Source: Candidatus Omnitrophota bacterium (lineage in GTDB: Bacteria > Omnitrophota > Gorgyraeia > Aquiviventales > Aquiviventaceae). From it: a stretch of 55,952 bases of DNA. Position 1 is the stretch's first letter; every line of letters starts with the position of its first letter. The notes beneath the pieces are model-generated. The model was not told where the DNA came from, ran no database searches, and saw only the letters and a program-made list of their open reading frames with translations. Shown piece after piece: positions 3,696 to 53,882 of this stretch. Location: contig JAHFGV010000015.1 of NCBI GenBank assembly GCA_023247255.1, positions 1 through 55,952 on the forward strand. The letters run 5' to 3'. The position numbers were made by a program, and so were the translations under genes.

Positions 3696-5081
3696 CTATT
3701 GAATGTGCCGCAAACGCTCAAGGAAATATTCCGGTCCCTCAAAACCCAACAACCGAAGATCGCTGCGTTCCTTGCCAAAGCGGTCGAACAGCAAAAGAGT
3801 TGGAACCCCAAAGATATCATAACGATCAAACAGTGCCTGTGCATCCGCGGATACCCCGAGGGTGGCATCAATACGAAAGGGCTGCATGAATCCTAGGGCT
3901 TTTACCACATCCGGATGGCGGAAGGTCACCTGATCCATCTCCACACAAGGAAGACACCAATCCGCATAGACATCGATGATTATAGGCTGATGCTTGCTCC
4001 GTGCTTGTTCAAATGCAGCCTCAGTATAAGAAACCCACTGAATTCTCTCATGTACTTGAGTCTCCAGCTTTGCCTTGGGCCATGCCACGGCAATAGCTAC
4101 CCCAATGAGCACAGAACCGACCAGTTGTCTGATCCGCAGGAAGACTCGGTTGGAGGCCTGGCTCTGCTGGAGCCAGCCAAGATACAAACCCGTACCGAGT
4201 AGCAGTCCCGTAACAGACCAGCCTGCTACGGCAGAGGAAAACAGCGGCCTGAGAAAATAGAGCGCCAATCCCAAAAGAACACATCCCAACGCTTTCTTGC
4301 TCCAGATGAGCCACTCACCGGCCCGAGGAAGCTGACCCAATCGATGAGCTGCCGTTGCGAGCACCAAGTAAGGCAACCCCATCCCCAATCCCATGACAAA
4401 GAATAGAAGAAATCCTTGAACCGGATGCGCCAGATGACTCACGAAAAGCACAAGCCCCAGTACGAACGGACCGACGCAAGGAGCCGCGACCAGCCCCACA
4501 ACGATTCCCATGAAAAAAGCACCCCACGGACCGCTCCAGGCCTTGGTTAATCGTCGGTTGATCACCTGCGGAAGACGAAAATCATAGAAACCGAAGAGAC
4601 TCAACGAAAGCGCCAGGATAACACCCGCGACCGCCACCAACACACTCGGCTGCTGAAGCCACGCTCCCAACAAGGCACCGGTCTTCGCCGCAACAAACCC
4701 CAGGGCCGCGTAGCTCAGAGAAATCCCAAGGATATAAACGCCTGCCAGACGCACGACACGCTGCCATGATCCGCGTGCTTGTTGCGTAAAGAACGCCAGG
4801 GTCACAGGAATCATGGGATAGACGCAAGGAGTCAGGTTGAGGGCAAGCCCTCCGATAAAGGCGGCTAAAAACCCCATCCAGAATCCATGGTGGGTGATGA
4901 ATTCTCCAAGCCAACCTGAAGGCTGCCCAGTCTGTGGCACACCCAGTCCCTGTGCCCAAAGCGGGATGCAGAATCCGATTACCCCCAGCCCAACTACGAT
5001 TCTCAAACATTGTAGGCTCAGGTTGAAAAACCGGGATCGAGAATTACCTCTCATCGTTTTGCACCACTTCTCCAAATGCAC
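3696..5081 (-). CDS. dsbD: DsbD-like thiol:disulfide interchange protein (CcdA core plus thioredoxin domain)
   Basis: LTPCVYPMIPVTLAFF, AAPCVGPF, C-terminal ADWCLPCVEM thioredoxin motif. Confidence 0.88.
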   Translation of the reverse strand: MHLEKWCKTMRGNSRSRFFNLSLQCLRIVVGLGVIGFCIPLWAQGLGVPQTGQPSGWLGEFITHHGFWMGFLAAFIGGLALNLTPCVYPMIPVTLAFFTQQARGSWQRVVRLAGVYILGISLSYAALGFVAAKTGALLGAWLQQPSVLVAVAGVILALSLSLFGFYDFRLPQVINRRLTKAWSGPWGAFFMGIVVGLVAAPCVGPFVLGLVLFVSHLAHPVQGFLLFFVMGLGMGLPYLVLATAAHRLGQLPRAGEWLIWSKKALGCVLLGLALYFLRPLFSSAVAGWSVTGLLLGTGLYLGWLQQSQASNRVFLRIRQLVGSVLIGVAIAVAWPKAKLETQVHERIQWVSYTEAAFEQARSKHQPIIIDVYADWCLPCVEMDQVTFRHPDVVKALGFMQPFRIDATLGVSADAQALFDRYDIFGVPTLLLFDRFGKERSDLRLLGFEGPEYFLERLRHIQ

Positions 5082-5168
5082 CAGCCTATTGAGTCTCGCA
5101 AATCAGAATGGCAGCGTTTATCGATGGTGAATCCTGTCATGAAATTCCGCGAGCATCAATAAACCTCG

Positions 5169-6164
5169 TCATTGTCTTTTCAGATAGCCATGCTCTCTAA
5201 ACCACGCTAGGGCCCGATGGATGGCTTCTTCAATGGAAATCTGGGACAGCCCTAATTCTTTTACGGCCTTGCTTCCATCCAGCTGTTGTCCAATCCTGGT
5301 CGCTTGAACCACAGACCGTGGCAAGAGCGGTTCTGAATGTGTCAGCCAAGCCAAGCCTTCTGTGGCCAAGGCTGTTGCCAAGGCAAACCGAAAAGGAATG
5401 CGCCATCGTGGCGGACGCACACCGGCTGACAGAGCTACCCTGGTGGCAAATTCTTTGACAGTGAAATCGGCATGCGTCAGCAGATACCGCCCACCCACGC
5501 GCCCTCGCTCAGCAGCGCGAAGATGCCCCATGCCAACGTCTCCAGTATAGATTGCGTTGAACCGATGCTCGATGAACCAGGGGAAACGGCCTTTGGCAAA
5601 AAGGAGTAGTGCCTGTCCCGAAAAAGGATGGGCGTCATATTCCCCGATACAGAAACTCGGATTGACAGTAACAATGGGCACTCCCTCTTGAATGGCCCGC
5701 CGTACTTCATGCTCCATCGCTACTTTGACTGTGGCGTAGAGCGGACGCCACTGGGCCAAAGGCCAGGATTCAGCGTCTTCTTCATTGGCCGGACGATCGG
5801 AAAGCTGTCGGATCGTCGCCGCACTGCTGGTATAGACAATTCGCGCAGGACGCATGGCACGAAGCTGATTCAGGATTGCTCTTGTGGATTCCATTCCTTG
5901 AGCAATCGCGCTGTTTCGCCGCGCGCGAAAAGATGGGTAGTAACCCGCCGCGTGAAAAACCCACTCACAACCATCCGCCACTCGACGCAGCGCATGGGGT
6001 TCGTCTAGATCCACCCTGACGCGTTCCACATCGAGCCCATCGAGAACATGCAGGAATCGTTCGCTTCTATAGGTGGCACGCACCCGATGCCCAGCCGCAA
6101 GCAGCGCCCTGACGATATGTGCCCCGATATGTCCCGTCGCCCCTAGCACCAACGCCTGCGCCAT
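5169..6164 (-). CDS. NAD-dependent epimerase / dihydroflavonol reductase-like (HpnA-like)
   Basis: ALVLGATGHIGAHIVRALL Rossmann motif; VYTSSAATI and YATVKVAME. Confidence 0.82.
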   Translation of the reverse strand: MAQALVLGATGHIGAHIVRALLAAGHRVRATYRSERFLHVLDGLDVERVRVDLDEPHALRRVADGCEWVFHAAGYYPSFRARRNSAIAQGMESTRAILNQLRAMRPARIVYTSSAATIRQLSDRPANEEDAESWPLAQWRPLYATVKVAMEHEVRRAIQEGVPIVTVNPSFCIGEYDAHPFSGQALLLFAKGRFPWFIEHRFNAIYTGDVGMGHLRAAERGRVGGRYLLTHADFTVKEFATRVALSAGVRPPRWRIPFRFALATALATEGLAWLTHSEPLLPRSVVQATRIGQQLDGSKAVKELGLSQISIEEAIHRALAWFREHGYLKRQ

Positions 6165-45621: not shown

Positions 45622-47151
45622 CTACTGCGTCTGCCAGGAGGTCGTGCGAAAGGCGTTCTGCTCGTTCTGCTGCCCCGTCCCGCTGACCGAGAGGGTGCGC
45701 AGGCTCTCGTCGTAGTGCAAACCGCTGACATCGTAAGTCTCGCCATACGGAGACGCCTCCAGGTGAAACCTGTCGCCGGCGACGAACGCGCCATAGAACT
45801 GGGCGACAGGGTCATAGGTATACGCCCCCATATCGTAATAGGCACCCAGGTAGACCATGCCGTGTTTCGAGTAGATCGTGCCGTAGAAGGGGGCGCGCTG
45901 CATGAGTCCGGCCCCACAGCCGTTCCACTGTTGGGTCTGCTCGCGAGGGACTCCCTGATGATAGATCTGTAAATCGCGCGGTTGTTGGGTGGTCGTCACG
46001 AACCCTTGGCGGCTGGATGCGCCCAGCCATCCGGTGTTGACGAAGATGCGATTGTTGCCCCGCGCTTCGATTTTCGCATCATCATGGAGCATGAGCGCCA
46101 TGTCTAGGACATCCCCCCAGCCCGGGACCGGGCCGTCATACCCCGGCCCATCGATATAGAGCTCGCAGCCTTCATCAAGCACGAAGGTCGCGTCGTTCTC
46201 GATCAGCAAGTAGGTGTAGTGCAGGCGCTGCGAGCCGAGGTCGCTGCACGAGGTAATCCCGCTGCTGAGCCGCACTCCGCCTTGATTGGGTGCTGCCAGC
46301 AGATCGGCCGGCACCACGACGTCGGGAAGCTCGGCCGGCAGATTCATATAAGGCTCTTGTTCGATTCCTCCCGTGATCGTGGCCGTCAGCGGAGTCGGAG
46401 ACACCGAGGTGGTGGGCGTGACATACGCCGTTCCGTCAACGGTGACATCCGATGACCAGATCATCAATTGATCGTTAGCAAAGATATCTCCCGCATGGCT
46501 CGGGTTCGCCGGATCATAGGTTTCTTGATAGCTGTCAATTCGCAAGGAGTCTGGGCTCCCTTCAAACCCGTCGATGTCCATGTATCTTCCAAACGCCGCG
46601 TACCGAAACGTGAGCGCCGTGTTTGCCTCCGTTGTCACCCGGACCGCCTGGGAGATGGTGCTTCCGGTGACATTGCCGTGGGCTAGAATGACGGGAGTGG
46701 CGGAGAAGGGGTCTGCCACCGTCACGGTATAGGTGCCCAGTGGGGTGTTCGAACCGTCGGTCGCCGTTAAGGTGATCGGCCCGCGCGCAAAGCATTGCGC
46801 GCCAACACCGATATCGATGCAGGCAGGAGTCCCGGAGATATCCGTCCAGCTTACGCCAAAGAGGCTGTCGTTGTGGTTCAGCTCCCAGAGACCGGTTTGC
46901 ACGCCCGCTTCCGCCAGGTTCACGGCTTGATCTTGAAGATAGGGGCGGGTGGTGGTCGTGAGCACGGTGTGGAAGAAGTTGAGGTAGCCGCTGACGGCCA
47001 ACAGCAGAACTATATTCAACCCCAAGGCCCATAGCAGGAGGAGGCTACCGGTGGGGTTCGTTACGCGAGAGGCCGCTGGCTGAGAATGCTGTATACGTCG
47101 ATGCATGCTCCTGCCCTCCTTAAGAAGAGTTCCCACAAGAAGAGTTCCCAC
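45622..47151 (-). CDS. PilX-like large minor-pilin-associated protein
   Basis: N-terminal TM (GSLLLLWALGLNIVLLLAVSGYLNFFHT) after a basic leader; third gene of a prepilin operon. Confidence 0.55.
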   Translation of the reverse strand: MGTLLVGTLLKEGRSMHRRIQHSQPAASRVTNPTGSLLLLWALGLNIVLLLAVSGYLNFFHTVLTTTTRPYLQDQAVNLAEAGVQTGLWELNHNDSLFGVSWTDISGTPACIDIGVGAQCFARGPITLTATDGSNTPLGTYTVTVADPFSATPVILAHGNVTGSTISQAVRVTTEANTALTFRYAAFGRYMDIDGFEGSPDSLRIDSYQETYDPANPSHAGDIFANDQLMIWSSDVTVDGTAYVTPTTSVSPTPLTATITGGIEQEPYMNLPAELPDVVVPADLLAAPNQGGVRLSSGITSCSDLGSQRLHYTYLLIENDATFVLDEGCELYIDGPGYDGPVPGWGDVLDMALMLHDDAKIEARGNNRIFVNTGWLGASSRQGFVTTTQQPRDLQIYHQGVPREQTQQWNGCGAGLMQRAPFYGTIYSKHGMVYLGAYYDMGAYTYDPVAQFYGAFVAGDRFHLEASPYGETYDVSGLHYDESLRTLSVSGTGQQNEQNAFRTTSWQTQ

Positions 47152-47168
47152 ACCTTTTCTATCGGGAG

Positions 47169-47702
47169 CTAGATATTCCGAAACGCCACTTGCGTCGAGA
47201 GGACTCCATCGAATGCATAGCCGCTTTCCATCTGTCGAGCCGATAAGGTGATCGTCACTGCGCGAGGACTCGATGTGTCGAAAGTGACCTGCGTGATTCC
47301 GTGCGCGACAACTTGGACCAGGTTCTCCCGGACGCCACCCCCTGGATTCACGGTCCGCTGCAGAATACCTGTCGCTGCGTTAAAATCGTATGTGAACGTA
47401 TCAGACATTCCGATAAGCGGCGCGCCGTTGACATCGATGGATGGCACCGTGAGAGTTAATGATGTCGCTGTGCTCGTTGCCGTTGTGGCGATCCGACCAT
47501 CTTGGCTCAACAGGCTCATCGCGGTGTTGAGTTGCATTTGCACCACCCCTTGACCGTGGAGAGCGACCAACACTTGAGAAGAGATGTTAGTGGCCCCCAG
47601 GATGATCGTCATCAGCACAAGACCCAATCCGGAGACCATTAGCAGCTCCGTGAGCGTAAACCCCCGCGCGGCGATCTGCGTGCGCGCTCCGTCTCTCTTC
47701 AT
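47169..47702 (-). CDS. Prepilin-like protein (PilW-type)
   Basis: RGFTLTELLMVSGLGLVLMTIILG class III leader. Confidence 0.82.
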   Translation of the reverse strand: MKRDGARTQIAARGFTLTELLMVSGLGLVLMTIILGATNISSQVLVALHGQGVVQMQLNTAMSLLSQDGRIATTATSTATSLTLTVPSIDVNGAPLIGMSDTFTYDFNAATGILQRTVNPGGGVRENLVQVVAHGITQVTFDTSSPRAVTITLSARQMESGYAFDGVLSTQVAFRNI

Positions 47703-47741
47703 GGGCTCCTCAATGATGGAGCCGGCCTCCGATGAGCCGAC

Positions 47742-48227
47742 TCACTGGGATATCAGGGTGCTCACCCGAAATGAACGGTTGTTCGCCAGGGTCACCGTCA
47801 CGATAATCTGCCTCAGGCTCGTATTGACGGACCCGTCACAACCTGGCGGATTTGCCGCGGGATTGTAGTCGCACACGTCAATTGTTCCCGTGGCATCGGT
47901 GATCGTTTCCAATCCATCGCCGATACCATCGGCTGGAGCGGTATCCTGAAACGCCAGCGTCCATTGGCCCGGGCCGACTGCCGTCTGGGCTAGCTGTGCA
48001 AACGGGAGCGTATGGACAAATTCCATCTGCCGTCTCATAGCCGACTTCGCGAGGAGGGCCTGGTTATGCTCGCGGAGGTCTCCCATGCCTTGAGTCATGG
48101 TCGTCAAGATCGCCATGATCCCGCTCGCGACGATGACGAGACTCACCAGAAACTCAAGGATCGTAAAACCTCCAGACAGACCTCCATCGACACGCATCCT
48201 CGCCATCCCTCGGTTGCCCTGTTTCAT
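47742..48227 (-). CDS. Prepilin-like protein (PilV-type)
   Basis: GGFTILEFLVSLVIVASGIMAILTTM class III leader. Confidence 0.82.
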   Translation of the reverse strand: MKQGNRGMARMRVDGGLSGGFTILEFLVSLVIVASGIMAILTTMTQGMGDLREHNQALLAKSAMRRQMEFVHTLPFAQLAQTAVGPGQWTLAFQDTAPADGIGDGLETITDATGTIDVCDYNPAANPPGCDGSVNTSLRQIIVTVTLANNRSFRVSTLISQ

Positions 48228-48761: not shown

Positions 48762-49406
48762 TCAAGCGACCAGTCCCTTGAGATGCAACGGATCTCTGCC
48801 AAGTCGAAGATTGAGCAGGACACAAAGTGCGTGGGCCAACAGCTTGCGCACCACGCGCATCGTCAGCTTCAGATGCAGCTTGAAGCCGTAGATGGTCTGG
48901 CCGAACCACTTGCCGTAGCTGGCCTGGCCTCGGAACAGCCGACAGCGATGGGCTCGCACAAACTCACAGATGTGCAGCGGCATGCTGTCGATGATCTGAA
49001 TGAAGGTGTCTTCTGCCCGCGTCAGCGCGTCCAGGAAGCGGCGCTTCAGCCACCCCGTCGCGGCGCATTGCCGCACGAAGTTGGAACGATCCGGCAACCG
49101 CGCAAAGAAGTGGCGCCAGTGTCGGGCGAAGTACTGGTAGATCGCCTTCTCGGTGTTGAGCCCCAGGTACTCGCCGACGACCTCCATGGTCATCACCTCG
49201 CTGTCCGCCAGGCGTGGCAGCGGGCCGCGCTGGCGCAGACGGCGGGCGGGGAACTGGGCTTTGACAAAATCGTCGATCTGACAGAACAGGGTAATGATCA
49301 ACTCGTCGAGTTGCATCGGGTCCTGCGTCTGTGTGTAGACACACACCGGTTGTACTGGCGGGGGACTCTTTTGTCTAGGGAAAAACTCGCACATGGCATC
49401 ATCCAT
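48762..49406 (-). pseudogene. IS982-like transposase with internal deletion
   Basis: LITLFCQIDDFVKAQ...LADSEVMTMEVVGEYLGLNTEKAIYQYFARHW...FGQTIYGFKLHLKLT then jumps to a C-terminal-like segment MRVVRKLLAHALCVLLNLRL. Confidence 0.65.
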
Positions 49407-49589: not shown

Positions 49590-50186
49590 TCAGAGAAGGC
49601 TGGCGGGCCTAGGCATACGCACGGTGTGGCTCCCAACCTTGATGTGCGATCCGGTAGATGCCGTCATGATCCCTACCCGATTCCAACCCTGGCGGCAGTG
49701 GACGAAGACCGGACGATTGGCGGGATTCCTGACAATCGACAAAAACTGATGCACCTGCCTATCGCTGGGACGCCACCAAAACCACATTGGGATATTGACC
49801 CAGCGCATCCCAAGCTGCTCAACCAACCGATGTTCTTCCTCCATCGCACCAGAGGGCTGTCGCAGGCCGATGATCGCCTTCACGCCCATGTGGCGCAATC
49901 GTTCCTATCCCACCGGCGTCGGCTGTCCCCCACGATAGAATCCTTCATCAACCGGGTAAAAGGTTGGCAGGTCGCGGGTATTCTGAGTAGATCGGACAAC
50001 AGTAGCGAACCCCTGGACGAACAGCACACCACCCACCAAACTGATAAGCCAAGATACATCGATCCGTTGTTTCATCCAATGGTGTGGGGCTTGAGGGCAT
50101 TCTTTCGACGAGAGATTAACTCGATGGCCCCATCCATCAGTATGAATACAATGCCCATGATGAGCAAGATGGCGTGTTTCAGCCAT
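49590..50186 (-). pseudogene. Dual-specificity/tyrosine phosphatase-like protein with in-frame stop and frameshift
   Basis: DEGFYRGGQPTPVG(TAG)ERLRHMGVKAIIGLR ... VFVHCRQGWNRVGIM then YRIAHQGWEPHRAYA in another frame. Confidence 0.75.
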
Positions 50187-50794: not shown

Positions 50795-51009
50795 GGACGT
50801 TGTGGAGCCCTACAGGATGAGCCAGTGGCACCGAGAACTCCGCCCCGATGGGGACAACATCCTGCCCCCCATCGACTGCTAACTGCCCTGTGGCCCAATG
50901 ACGGGATCGTAGAAATTCCGGCTCAATTTTGTTGGATACTATTTTAATTGTTTTTCAAGTTGATTGCCACTCGTTCGCATTCATGGTCCTGCGTGGTATA
51001 CTGGGAAAA

Positions 51010-51849
51010 ATGGCACGTATCTGTCGGATGTTACTTTGTCTGTGGGCAATGACCCTTCCCTTTCAGGCATTTGCTCAGAGTGAAGATGTCTTGTCTCTGC
51101 TTCAGTCAGGATGGCAGGCTTATGAACGCAAAGACCTGCGCCAAGCCATCCAAGATTACCAACAAGTTTTAAACCGGGTGCCTCAAGACGCCCGCTTATG
51201 GTACGACCTGGGGTGTTTATACACACTGAATCATGATTTAGCCAACGCCCAACAGAGTTGGAACCAAGCATTGGCTCTTAATCCGCGCTCGGCCCAGGTC
51301 CATGACGCCTTGGGACAGTTGCTCGAGCAGCAGGCGGATGGGTCGGGTGCCCAGATCCATTATGCCACCGCCACGGAACTTGAGCCCGGTAATGCCGCTT
51401 ATCTCTGGCACCGGATCCGGAATCGCTTATACCTGAAAAAATTCTCAGAAGCCCGCAGCGATCTTCAGCGCCTGCTGATGCTCGATCCTAACCATGTCGA
51501 GGGGCATTATGCCCTGGGGGTTTTGACGCTCCAGAATAACGCTCCGGATTTGGCTATATTGGAATTTCGAAAGACGATTGATCTGGCCCCGAATCATGTG
51601 CTGGCTCTAAACGGTCTTGGGCTGGCTTACATCCGGATCAGGGAATTCGAGCAGGCGGCCGAAGTTCTCCAGAAAGCCGACAGGTTAGATCCGTGGAACG
51701 CTCGGACAGAAAGCAATCTGGGAATCTTGGCTGCTTCCCAACAGCAATGGGAGAAAGCTCGTCAAGCCTGGGAACAGGCATTGAAAGAGAGTCCTCAGTT
51801 TGAACCCGCCAGTAGAAACCTGAAAATCCTTGATGGCTTAATGAAATGA
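51010..51849 (+). CDS. Secreted TPR-repeat protein
   Basis: Signal peptide MARICRMLLCLWAMTLPFQAFAQ then repeated TPR motifs. Confidence 0.88.
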   Translation: MARICRMLLCLWAMTLPFQAFAQSEDVLSLLQSGWQAYERKDLRQAIQDYQQVLNRVPQDARLWYDLGCLYTLNHDLANAQQSWNQALALNPRSAQVHDALGQLLEQQADGSGAQIHYATATELEPGNAAYLWHRIRNRLYLKKFSEARSDLQRLLMLDPNHVEGHYALGVLTLQNNAPDLAILEFRKTIDLAPNHVLALNGLGLAYIRIREFEQAAEVLQKADRLDPWNARTESNLGILAASQQQWEKARQAWEQALKESPQFEPASRNLKILDGLMK

Positions 51850-51856
51850 AGCGTCC

Positions 51857-53182
51857 ATGAAGAGACGTCGAACGCCCGCAGTTCCACCGGTAAAACCCCT
51901 GGTATCTGCAATCCCCCGATGGAGGAAAGATCCTATCCACCTACCGGTTTGTGCGCAACTACAGGGTCGAAAGATACAAGCCTTCACGCTGCTTGAATTG
52001 TTGATCGCCATCCTGATCATAGTCATTCTCGCGAGTATTGCCCTGCCGCTTTACTTCCGATCAGTTGAACACGCACGCTCAACCGAAGCCCTGAGTAACC
52101 TGTCGGCCATTCGTAGCGCGCAAACCCTCTACCGTGCTCAGTATGGAGAATTCGTCGAGGCGCTCGATCTACCCGCCATTAACACGAATCTTAATCTGGA
52201 GCTGACGGCGCGACATTACGACTACCAGATCCCCGAAGCCGATCAAGACTCTTTTCTGATCGTCGCCTCTAGTCCCCGTCTGACGCTGACGATGGACAAT
52301 ACAGGCAAGATCACTTATCAGTGGCCTGGGGGTGGCAGCGGAAGCAGCTCAGGAAGCACGGGAGCCTCAAGCGGTGGTGGAGGAAGTGGGGGTGGAAGTT
52401 CCGGAAGCGGTGGAGCTGGCTCAGGCGGGGGTGGAGGATCCTTTGGGGGAGGTGGGGCAGGCACAGCAGGAGGTGGAAGTTCCGGTGGTGGCAGTGGCAC
52501 AGGCGGGGGCTCTGGTGGAGGAAGCGGAGGAACCGACAGTGGCGATAGTTTTCCCACTCTTGCCAGCGGCAGTACAGGAACCAGTCGTGGAACGTTTCCC
52601 ACTCAGTTTCCATCGGCGACTGAACCGAATATTCCCGACGGCCCCTATGCTCAGCAGATACGCGATGCGTTCAACCTGCTTAAAAATGACGGGACTCTCG
52701 CCCAGGAGCTCGCTCAGCTTTTGATCCTCCACCAATCCAAACTGACATTCTCTTCCCTTGATGAAGGCACCCTAGGAACCATCGGCCCTTCCAGCAGTTG
52801 GTGGGATGCGACCATCGCTGGATCGCAAGTTCTTTTAGACGACTCGATGGCCTCAGAGGCATGGCCAGTGGTGGAAATCGCCGCAGTGTTGGCTCATGAA
52901 GCATACCACATCACACAGGTCTACAATGATCTGTTCATCGGATTTCCTCCTACCGTGCTATGGCTGGAGGATGTCGAGGGGCCAGCGTATATTAGAGAAA
53001 CCAAAGTCTGGGATAGTCTGCGACGGGATTCCTCAGGCACCATTGTCACTTTCGCCACTCATAATGACTGGGACTTTCGAGCAGATTCGTTTATTCGGTC
53101 GGATGGCACTGTGGATGAAGCGCAACACAATGCCTACATCACTTTCTCGCGAGGAATCACTCCCAATACTTCATTCTTTTAA
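51857..53182 (+). CDS. Type IV pilin-like N-terminus, Gly/Ser-rich linker, HExxH zincin-like domain
   Basis: QAFTLLELLIAILIIVILASIALPLYFRS; about 75-residue GGGSGGGSSGSGG linker; AAVLAHEAYHITQ ... WLEDVEGPAYIRE. Confidence 0.8.
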   Translation: MKRRRTPAVPPVKPLVSAIPRWRKDPIHLPVCAQLQGRKIQAFTLLELLIAILIIVILASIALPLYFRSVEHARSTEALSNLSAIRSAQTLYRAQYGEFVEALDLPAINTNLNLELTARHYDYQIPEADQDSFLIVASSPRLTLTMDNTGKITYQWPGGGSGSSSGSTGASSGGGGSGGGSSGSGGAGSGGGGGSFGGGGAGTAGGGSSGGGSGTGGGSGGGSGGTDSGDSFPTLASGSTGTSRGTFPTQFPSATEPNIPDGPYAQQIRDAFNLLKNDGTLAQELAQLLILHQSKLTFSSLDEGTLGTIGPSSSWWDATIAGSQVLLDDSMASEAWPVVEIAAVLAHEAYHITQVYNDLFIGFPPTVLWLEDVEGPAYIRETKVWDSLRRDSSGTIVTFATHNDWDFRADSFIRSDGTVDEAQHNAYITFSRGITPNTSFF

Positions 53183-53189
53183 CACGAAA

Positions 53190-53882
53190 ATGAAACGACT
53201 TCCGTGGGTGGTAATTCTACTGGGTTGTTGGATCAGTCTTGTGTGCGACTCAACGATTGGAGTCAGTGCGATGGCTAAAGAACCCAGCCCTTCTGATCCG
53301 GCAGCTTCTATTCCTCTGGCACCGGATCGACCACGTCCGGATCGGACTCCTCACGTGGAAGGTATCGGTCCTTTCGTGCCTTATGTACCTAAGAGCTTGA
53401 AACTTGCTTGTACCTTTGAGGTCCCCGACAACTGGCTGGCTACGGAACAGCAGGGCCGAGGCGAGCGGTATCAACAAATCATCTTGGTCGGTCCGCGCAA
53501 TGCGCAGGACACCTATCATGCGGGCCTAACGGTAAGAATCACACCCGTTGGAGCCGGTGGGGGATCCTATGCGACTTTGGAAGATCTCATCGATTGGCGA
53601 CGTAAACAGTATGCTCAGACCGCCGGATTCAGTGAATTGTCGTTTCGTGAAGTATCCGTGGTGGGACCACCCGCAAAGGAACTCAAATGGATATTTCAAG
53701 TAACCCTGCCCTCTGCTGTTGGGCCGCAAACGGTGCTTTTAAAAAACCAACTCGTCTTGTTCGCCCATCAGGAGCAGTTGTACGAGCTAAGTTTTGGAGC
53801 GGACGCCGTGGAGTTTGAGCGTTATGCGCCTGCCTTTGAACACCTCTTGCAGAGTTTCCAGCTCGTGCCTTCGCCACAGTAA
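53190..53882 (+). CDS. Secreted protein of unknown function (PsbP/DcrB-like fold guess)
   Basis: Signal peptide MKRLPWVVILLGCWISLVC; CTFEVPDNWLATEQQGRGERYQQIILVG ... ELSFGADAVEFERYAPAFEHLLQSFQ. Confidence 0.65.
   Translation: MKRLPWVVILLGCWISLVCDSTIGVSAMAKEPSPSDPAASIPLAPDRPRPDRTPHVEGIGPFVPYVPKSLKLACTFEVPDNWLATEQQGRGERYQQIILVGPRNAQDTYHAGLTVRITPVGAGGGSYATLEDLIDWRRKQYAQTAGFSELSFREVSVVGPPAKELKWIFQVTLPSAVGPQTVLLKNQLVLFAHQEQLYELSFGADAVEFERYAPAFEHLLQSFQLVPSPQ

Follow-up and report, generated by a model that had tools for sequence, protein, structure and literature searches.

A modular type IV pilin carrying a predicted minigluzincin-like domain in Candidatus Omnitrophota

Gene order and pilin features at the locus

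The window, that is, the whole stretch of 55,952 nucleotides analysed here, contains an intact open reading frame of 441 aa (51857-53182, + strand), which we call the zincin-pilin and which lies between two genes on the same strand whose products are both predicted to be exported. The upstream gene (50929..51849, +; likely start ATG 51010) encodes a secreted TPR protein (Pfam TPR_2, 5e-31) with the predicted signal peptide MARICRMLLCLWAMTLPFQAFA, and the downstream gene (53190..53882, +) encodes a PsbP/Mog1-like secreted protein of 230 aa. The three genes are tightly packed, as the zincin-pilin starts 7 nt past the TPR stop and the PsbP-like gene starts 7 nt past the zincin-pilin stop. The initial annotation of this open reading frame described a type IV pilin helix, a Gly/Ser linker and an HExxH domain. 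All three parts are present; a pilin head domain of about 90 residues was missed, and the neighbouring TPR and PsbP-like genes, which prove to be conserved, were overlooked.

The protein begins with a long prepilin leader of 42 aa (51857..51982, +), and cleavage is predicted at A42^F43 within QA^FTLLE, with Ala at -1 and Glu at +5. The N_methyl profile PF07963 matches residues 38-63 (E 1.6e-5) and exceeds its curated cut-off, in agreement with the pilin helix recognized earlier. The type IV pilin module (residues 43-156; 51983..52324, +) consists of the hydrophobic helix with Glu+5 and the head domain (residues ~64-155), which separates the helix from the linker and matches Pilin_GH/ComP_DUS weakly; TIGR02532 and the GspG profile TIGR01710 (6e-8, under the equivalog cut-off) also match. 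By its sequence, then, the window protein is a whole GspG-like pilin with an extra C-terminal module. The Ala before Phe+1 had been remarked on as unusual and is indeed there, but it is shared with many relatives, in which Ala or Ser at -1 is common; it is therefore no defect of the window copy, and the idea of a pilin that cannot be processed because of this residue was dropped. The class III signal, the hydrophobic helix and Glu+5 are also found in 33 relatives with a readable type II start.

The pilin module is followed by a Gly/Ser leash of about 73 residues, evident in the translation (residues 157-229; 52325..52543, +), in which G+S content reaches 88% in a 50-residue window. Nearly all members have such a long, unstructured leash, the sequence of which is variable while its composition is kept. 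The zincin-like domain occupies residues 256-441 (52622..53179, +). Five relatives (L036, L038, L075, L077 and L132) have an extra domain of about 90 residues between leash and zincin that looks fibronectin-III-like by eye.

The host genome encodes filament machines, to judge from a prepilin peptidase, 7 secretins and 14 T2SSF domains; no pilus operon was found around the zincin-pilin in the loci read. Two minor-pilin-like genes lie in the window at 47169-47702 and 47742-48227 (-), next to a gene (45622-47151, -) whose large product has a hydrophobic segment at its N-terminus. Together the genes in 45622-48227 are possibly a minor pilin set; they lie on the strand opposite to the cassette, at a distance of 3-4 kb. 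Between them and the cassette are a shortened DDE_Tnp_1_3 transposase gene (48762-49406, -), an apparent insertion-sequence remnant, and a gene for a DSP-type protein phosphatase (49590-50186, -), in which HC-x5-R is present and which appears to be split over two frames near 49900, as a pseudogene or through an error in the assembly.

The predicted zincin domain and its catalytic residues

Relatives of the fusion were collected with profiles run against the family, the class and the phylum and with a scan of 85,000 species. A single-protein scan of genome contigs had found nothing, and the HEATHADY subfamily took the place of a 28-row alignment whose diversity was too great for patterns. This yielded 46 non-redundant fusion relatives, and HExxH is kept in all 46. 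In the window protein the motif is HEAYH (residues 347-351; 52895..52909, +), with H347 and H351 as predicted zinc ligands and E348 as predicted general base; the motif had been placed one base off, at 52894-52908, in the initial annotation, and is otherwise real. The same annotation had suggested that LEDVE downstream might supply a third glutamate ligand, and this suggestion has gained strength: E374 of LEDVE (52976..52978, +), spaced as HExxH-x22-E and predicted to be the third zinc ligand in the following helix, is an invariant column in every alignment. The downstream Glu is present in 45/45 complete copies (pattern matching found 43, and inspection by eye added L081 and L136; L069 is truncated at the end of its contig and was left out), and the second motif reads (D/Q/I/T)xE with Tyr, Phe or Gly as the next residue and, in most cases, Ala two positions further. 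The conservation of the layout and of HExxH...E rules out that the HExxH arose by chance in some random protein with a linker. Two early weak matches, L023 (M48) and L052, were set aside as unrelated HExxH proteins.

The members fall into four types by their active-site motif (HEATHADY, HEGTHFQQY, HEAYHITQ and HEGWHLYQ), and these four sequence subfamilies form one family by profile comparison, the window subfamily aligning with the main subfamily over 152 columns in hhalign (probability 98.8, E 9.7e-17). The window domain was modelled by AlphaFold2 with moderate confidence (pLDDT 78.9, pTM 0.78), and the assignment of a fold leans mainly on the main subfamily, represented by the L055 domain (pLDDT 94.2, pTM 0.90). 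Both models contain strands, then a long HExxH helix, then a helix with the conserved Glu near its start, and E374 sits in modelled helix 111-133 of the window domain. As modelled, this order of strands and helices is that of gluzincins. In a Foldseek search with the L055 model, selecase was the best match (probability 0.97-1.0, E from 0.06) and jannalysin was also found, with E values that are not significant; selecase aligned at a TM-score of 0.34 by query, with a probability of up to 1.0 and E 0.06. The moderate-confidence window model gave top matches that are mostly zincins, the best at E 0.59, which is not significant. The zincin matches are thus weak but consistent, and the predicted fold shows the zincin order of strands, active-site helix and Glu helix. 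Neither of the outcomes that the initial annotation had named as refuting it, a predicted structure without a zincin fold or an HExxH not kept in homologs, came up. At the sequence level, the profile matched selecase MJ1213 (E 3e-4) with its HExLH aligned, and this was the sole PDB sequence match; searched by itself, the window domain matched nothing in Pfam or NCBIfam and nothing significantly in the PDB. Taken with the models, these matches suggest that the domain is a zincin whose nearest known structures are minigluzincins such as selecase.

We do not file the domain under an existing family. DUF6782 (PF20573), a putative metallopeptidase family, matches 11 of 28 members (best E 6e-4) under its gathering cut-off; it has no match in the window copy or elsewhere in its genome, and the relatives score below 27 bits. 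The profile of the alphaKG-HExxH hydroxylases, TIGR04267, matches 5 of 23 members weakly (best E 0.006, under the curated cut-off) and the window protein not at all. As the curated cut-offs are missed, the sequence provides no membership in either family; nor is the domain filed as a selecase member, given a fold E of 0.06 and a TM-score of 0.34 for the model.

Distribution, partner genes and exchange of the pilin carrier

All 46 relatives come from Candidatus Omnitrophota, in which they span at least two classes, and the named records among them are Candidatus Omnitrophota in 23 of 23 cases. One of these records, L055, is identical to locus L039 of G115, a genome of the same class as the window, which places the window in Omnitrophota as well. 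Outside the phylum nothing was found in one pattern-based scan and in phage, plasmid and viral collections. Eight positive genomes belong to another class of the phylum, which shows that the pilin-zincin fusion is old within Omnitrophota. A phage or plasmid origin is unsupported, as relatives are absent from phages (searched with the window domain), plasmids and viral contigs. A search of related genomes turned up distant copies and one direct orthologue, L010 (57% identity), which has the same three genes in order, and a frameshift or misassembly as the source of the fusion is excluded because this order recurs in the orthologue (L010/L013).

The PsbP-like gene is the most constant neighbour. 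It lies directly downstream in 43 of the 44 loci with enough sequence, mostly at distances of -20 to +50 nt, and L058 is the only locus without it. The partner family matches PsbP_2 (7e-6), PsbP and LpqN weakly, over the full length of these profiles; a hydrophobic N-terminus was detected by script in all but one of 37 partners, many of which carry a lipobox. When zincin and PsbP profiles were searched in 384 genomes of the phylum, 35 genomes had a zincin and 34 a PsbP partner, all 34 within the 35. The partner is thus present in 34/35 strong zincin genomes versus 0/349 others (Fisher 6e-48), a figure to be read with the facts that the profiles were built from the same loci, that the cut-offs were set after the score gaps had been seen (zincin 9e-13 then 1.8e-6; PsbP 8e-28 then 1e-17) and that related genomes are not independent. 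In the one genome with a zincin and no PsbP (G379), the zincin lies at a contig end, and in G388 the two genes sit at the ends of separate contigs, the pattern expected from a break in the assembly. The single PsbP match of the window genome is the neighbour of the zincin-pilin. Weaker PsbP-like genes elsewhere in the phylum were rejected as partners, since their neighbours are ordinary and they are therefore separate paralogues. At L058 another membrane-anchored protein (1761-2504, +) replaces the PsbP gene, and at L078 two different PsbP-like genes follow one zincin-pilin in a row (4519-5702, +).

The pilin part is less constant in kind than in presence. Every copy with an intact start has a pilin N-terminus, 34 of them type II-like and 4 class III/Flp-like (n = 38); 33 of the 38 have a type II pilin start, and L081 begins in an odd, pilin-like way and lacks a head domain. 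The class III/Flp-like start is of the GQxLLEYLLI type (Class_IIIsignal 9e-4, under the cut-off), and the four copies with this carrier lack the pilin head module. At least three separate changes on the zincin tree are needed to account for the class III carrier, and genome G080 has both carriers in tandem with near-identical zincins. Its locus L086 (5327-9342, -) comprises two zincin-PsbP pairs; in their middle part the two PsbP genes hardly differ, a likeness that resembles recent duplication or gene conversion. Because the carrier has been swapped repeatedly, it appears from these sequences that selection keeps presentation by a filament-type subunit, not one particular pilin.

The TPR homologue behaves differently. 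Among the 38 loci with enough upstream sequence it is directly upstream in 27 and missing in 11, and its presence follows the carrier (27/33 type II carriers versus 0/5 others; p 9e-4). A change of carrier leaves the PsbP gene in place, whereas the TPR gene is then absent, so that PsbP is tied to the zincin and TPR to the pilin. Gene order across these loci marks the TPR, zincin-pilin and PsbP-like genes as a conserved cassette.

Proposed function and comparison with known systems

We consider it somewhat probable that the locus encodes a modular type IV pilin that carries a minigluzincin-like zinc metallopeptidase and displays it on a filament, with a PsbP-like partner and a TPR assembly factor. 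Catalysis, processing, filament incorporation, substrate and partner role are what we infer, as follows. The layout of the three genes and its conservation suggest that they are co-transcribed and made as one unit. The prepilin peptidase would cut at A^F, and the N-terminal helix would anchor the protein in the inner membrane pending assembly. As a minor or tip subunit the protein would then join a filament, either a type IV pilus or a type II pseudopilus, with the TPR protein possibly aiding assembly. The leash would hold the folded zincin off the filament body, so that it could reach the outer surface or the secretin interior and there cut peptides or proteins. The exported, often lipid-anchored PsbP-fold partner would, because the pairing is so strict, bind the zincin and keep it folded or silent until display.

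The same genes could serve a peptidase that never leaves the periplasm: the pilin N-terminus would be a mere inner-membrane anchor, and the zincin would sweep the periplasm in envelope quality control or filament-subunit processing, with the PsbP-like lipoprotein as its adaptor. The cassette lies outside the filament operons even though the host is rich in type IV filament systems, the partner and the TPR protein are both exported, and the searches returned weak matches to envelope proteases (BepA, M48). A plain anchor, however, would call neither for a full pilin head nor for joining the zincin several times over to filament subunits of two kinds, and we regard this explanation as rather unlikely. 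The long unstructured leash, variable in sequence and constant in composition, could also be a site of release, a pseudopilus carrying the zincin through the secretin and the leash being cut by the zincin itself or by another protease; the Gly/Ser leash contains no conserved cleavage motif, though, and simple tethering explains it equally well, which leaves such a self-releasing exoenzyme improbable.

The domain might alternatively be no peptidase at all: it could hydroxylate peptides as an alphaKG/Fe(II) enzyme, or it could be a binding module that is catalytically silent. Against a hydroxylase, 2-oxoglutarate is not expected outside the cytoplasm. HExxH does occur in alphaKG-dependent oxygenases too, some of which were formerly misread as peptidases (PMC12636437), and in addition to the weak TIGR04267 matches the ChlB HExxH oxygenase (8s5f) was among the weak fold matches of the window model. 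The better-modelled L055 subfamily nevertheless matches selecase and not this oxygenase, and the invariant HExxH and third Glu argue against a silent module; a non-peptidase function of either kind seems very improbable. Omnitrophota are an uncultured phylum. T4a pili and Tad are widespread in its small cells, and predators or parasites occur among its members (PMC10066038). As a more specific and doubtful extension of the filament-displayed peptidase that we favour, the leashed zincin on type IV/Tad-like filaments, with a PsbP-fold inhibitor or chaperone, might be a dedicated Omnitrophota protease for attacking or feeding on neighbouring cells.

If filament display is correct, a type IV filament would carry an enzyme, beyond serving as adhesin, motor or secretion piston; the class of pilin-peptidases predicted in 2021 would gain a deep family that can be tested and whose catalytic residues do not vary; the PsbP fold, common yet poorly understood, would get a specific partner to test; and Omnitrophota, among whose small cells there are probably predators and parasites that employ T4a and Tad pili (PMC10066038), would have a concrete candidate surface enzyme. 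The initial annotation knew of no described pilin-protease fusion, which needs correction, as modular pilins were defined by Raynaud et al. 2021 (PMC8179133) with InterPro architectures that include predicted S74 and M26 peptidase modules. A described pilin-HExxH fusion was not found in the open-access literature, nor was any description of the present module, its cassette across the phylum or its partner. On testable sequence features, the zincin-pilin belongs with the modular type IV pilins, the zincin-like domain being an extra C-terminal module that is not specific to pilus biology; what is new is the module, its conservation across the phylum, its PsbP partner and the exchange of carriers.

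Like PilB and PilC of Streptococcus sanguinis (PMC8179133), the zincin-pilin has an N-terminal pilin module and an unrelated functional module at the C-terminus and is predicted to be a minor or tip subunit. Unlike them, it has an HExxH...E zincin outside S74/M26 and a Gly/Ser leash of about 70 residues in place of a short loop, and it comes with a PsbP-like and TPR cassette, on two unrelated pilin carriers and in Omnitrophota only. With selecase (MJ1213, 4qhf-4qhj) and jannalysin (4jix) it shares the predicted fold order and the HExxH on the active-site helix; the match covers about 47 residues, whereas the domain described here has about 180 aa with extra C-terminal helices and is exported and leashed to a pilin. 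DUF6782 (PF20573), Peptidase_M48 and SprT-like families share the HExxH region, all below curated cut-offs, and the window copy matches none of them. The partner resembles PsbP, PsbP_2 and LpqN in its weak full-length match, its export and its frequent lipobox, and stands as a separate clade tied to the zincin.
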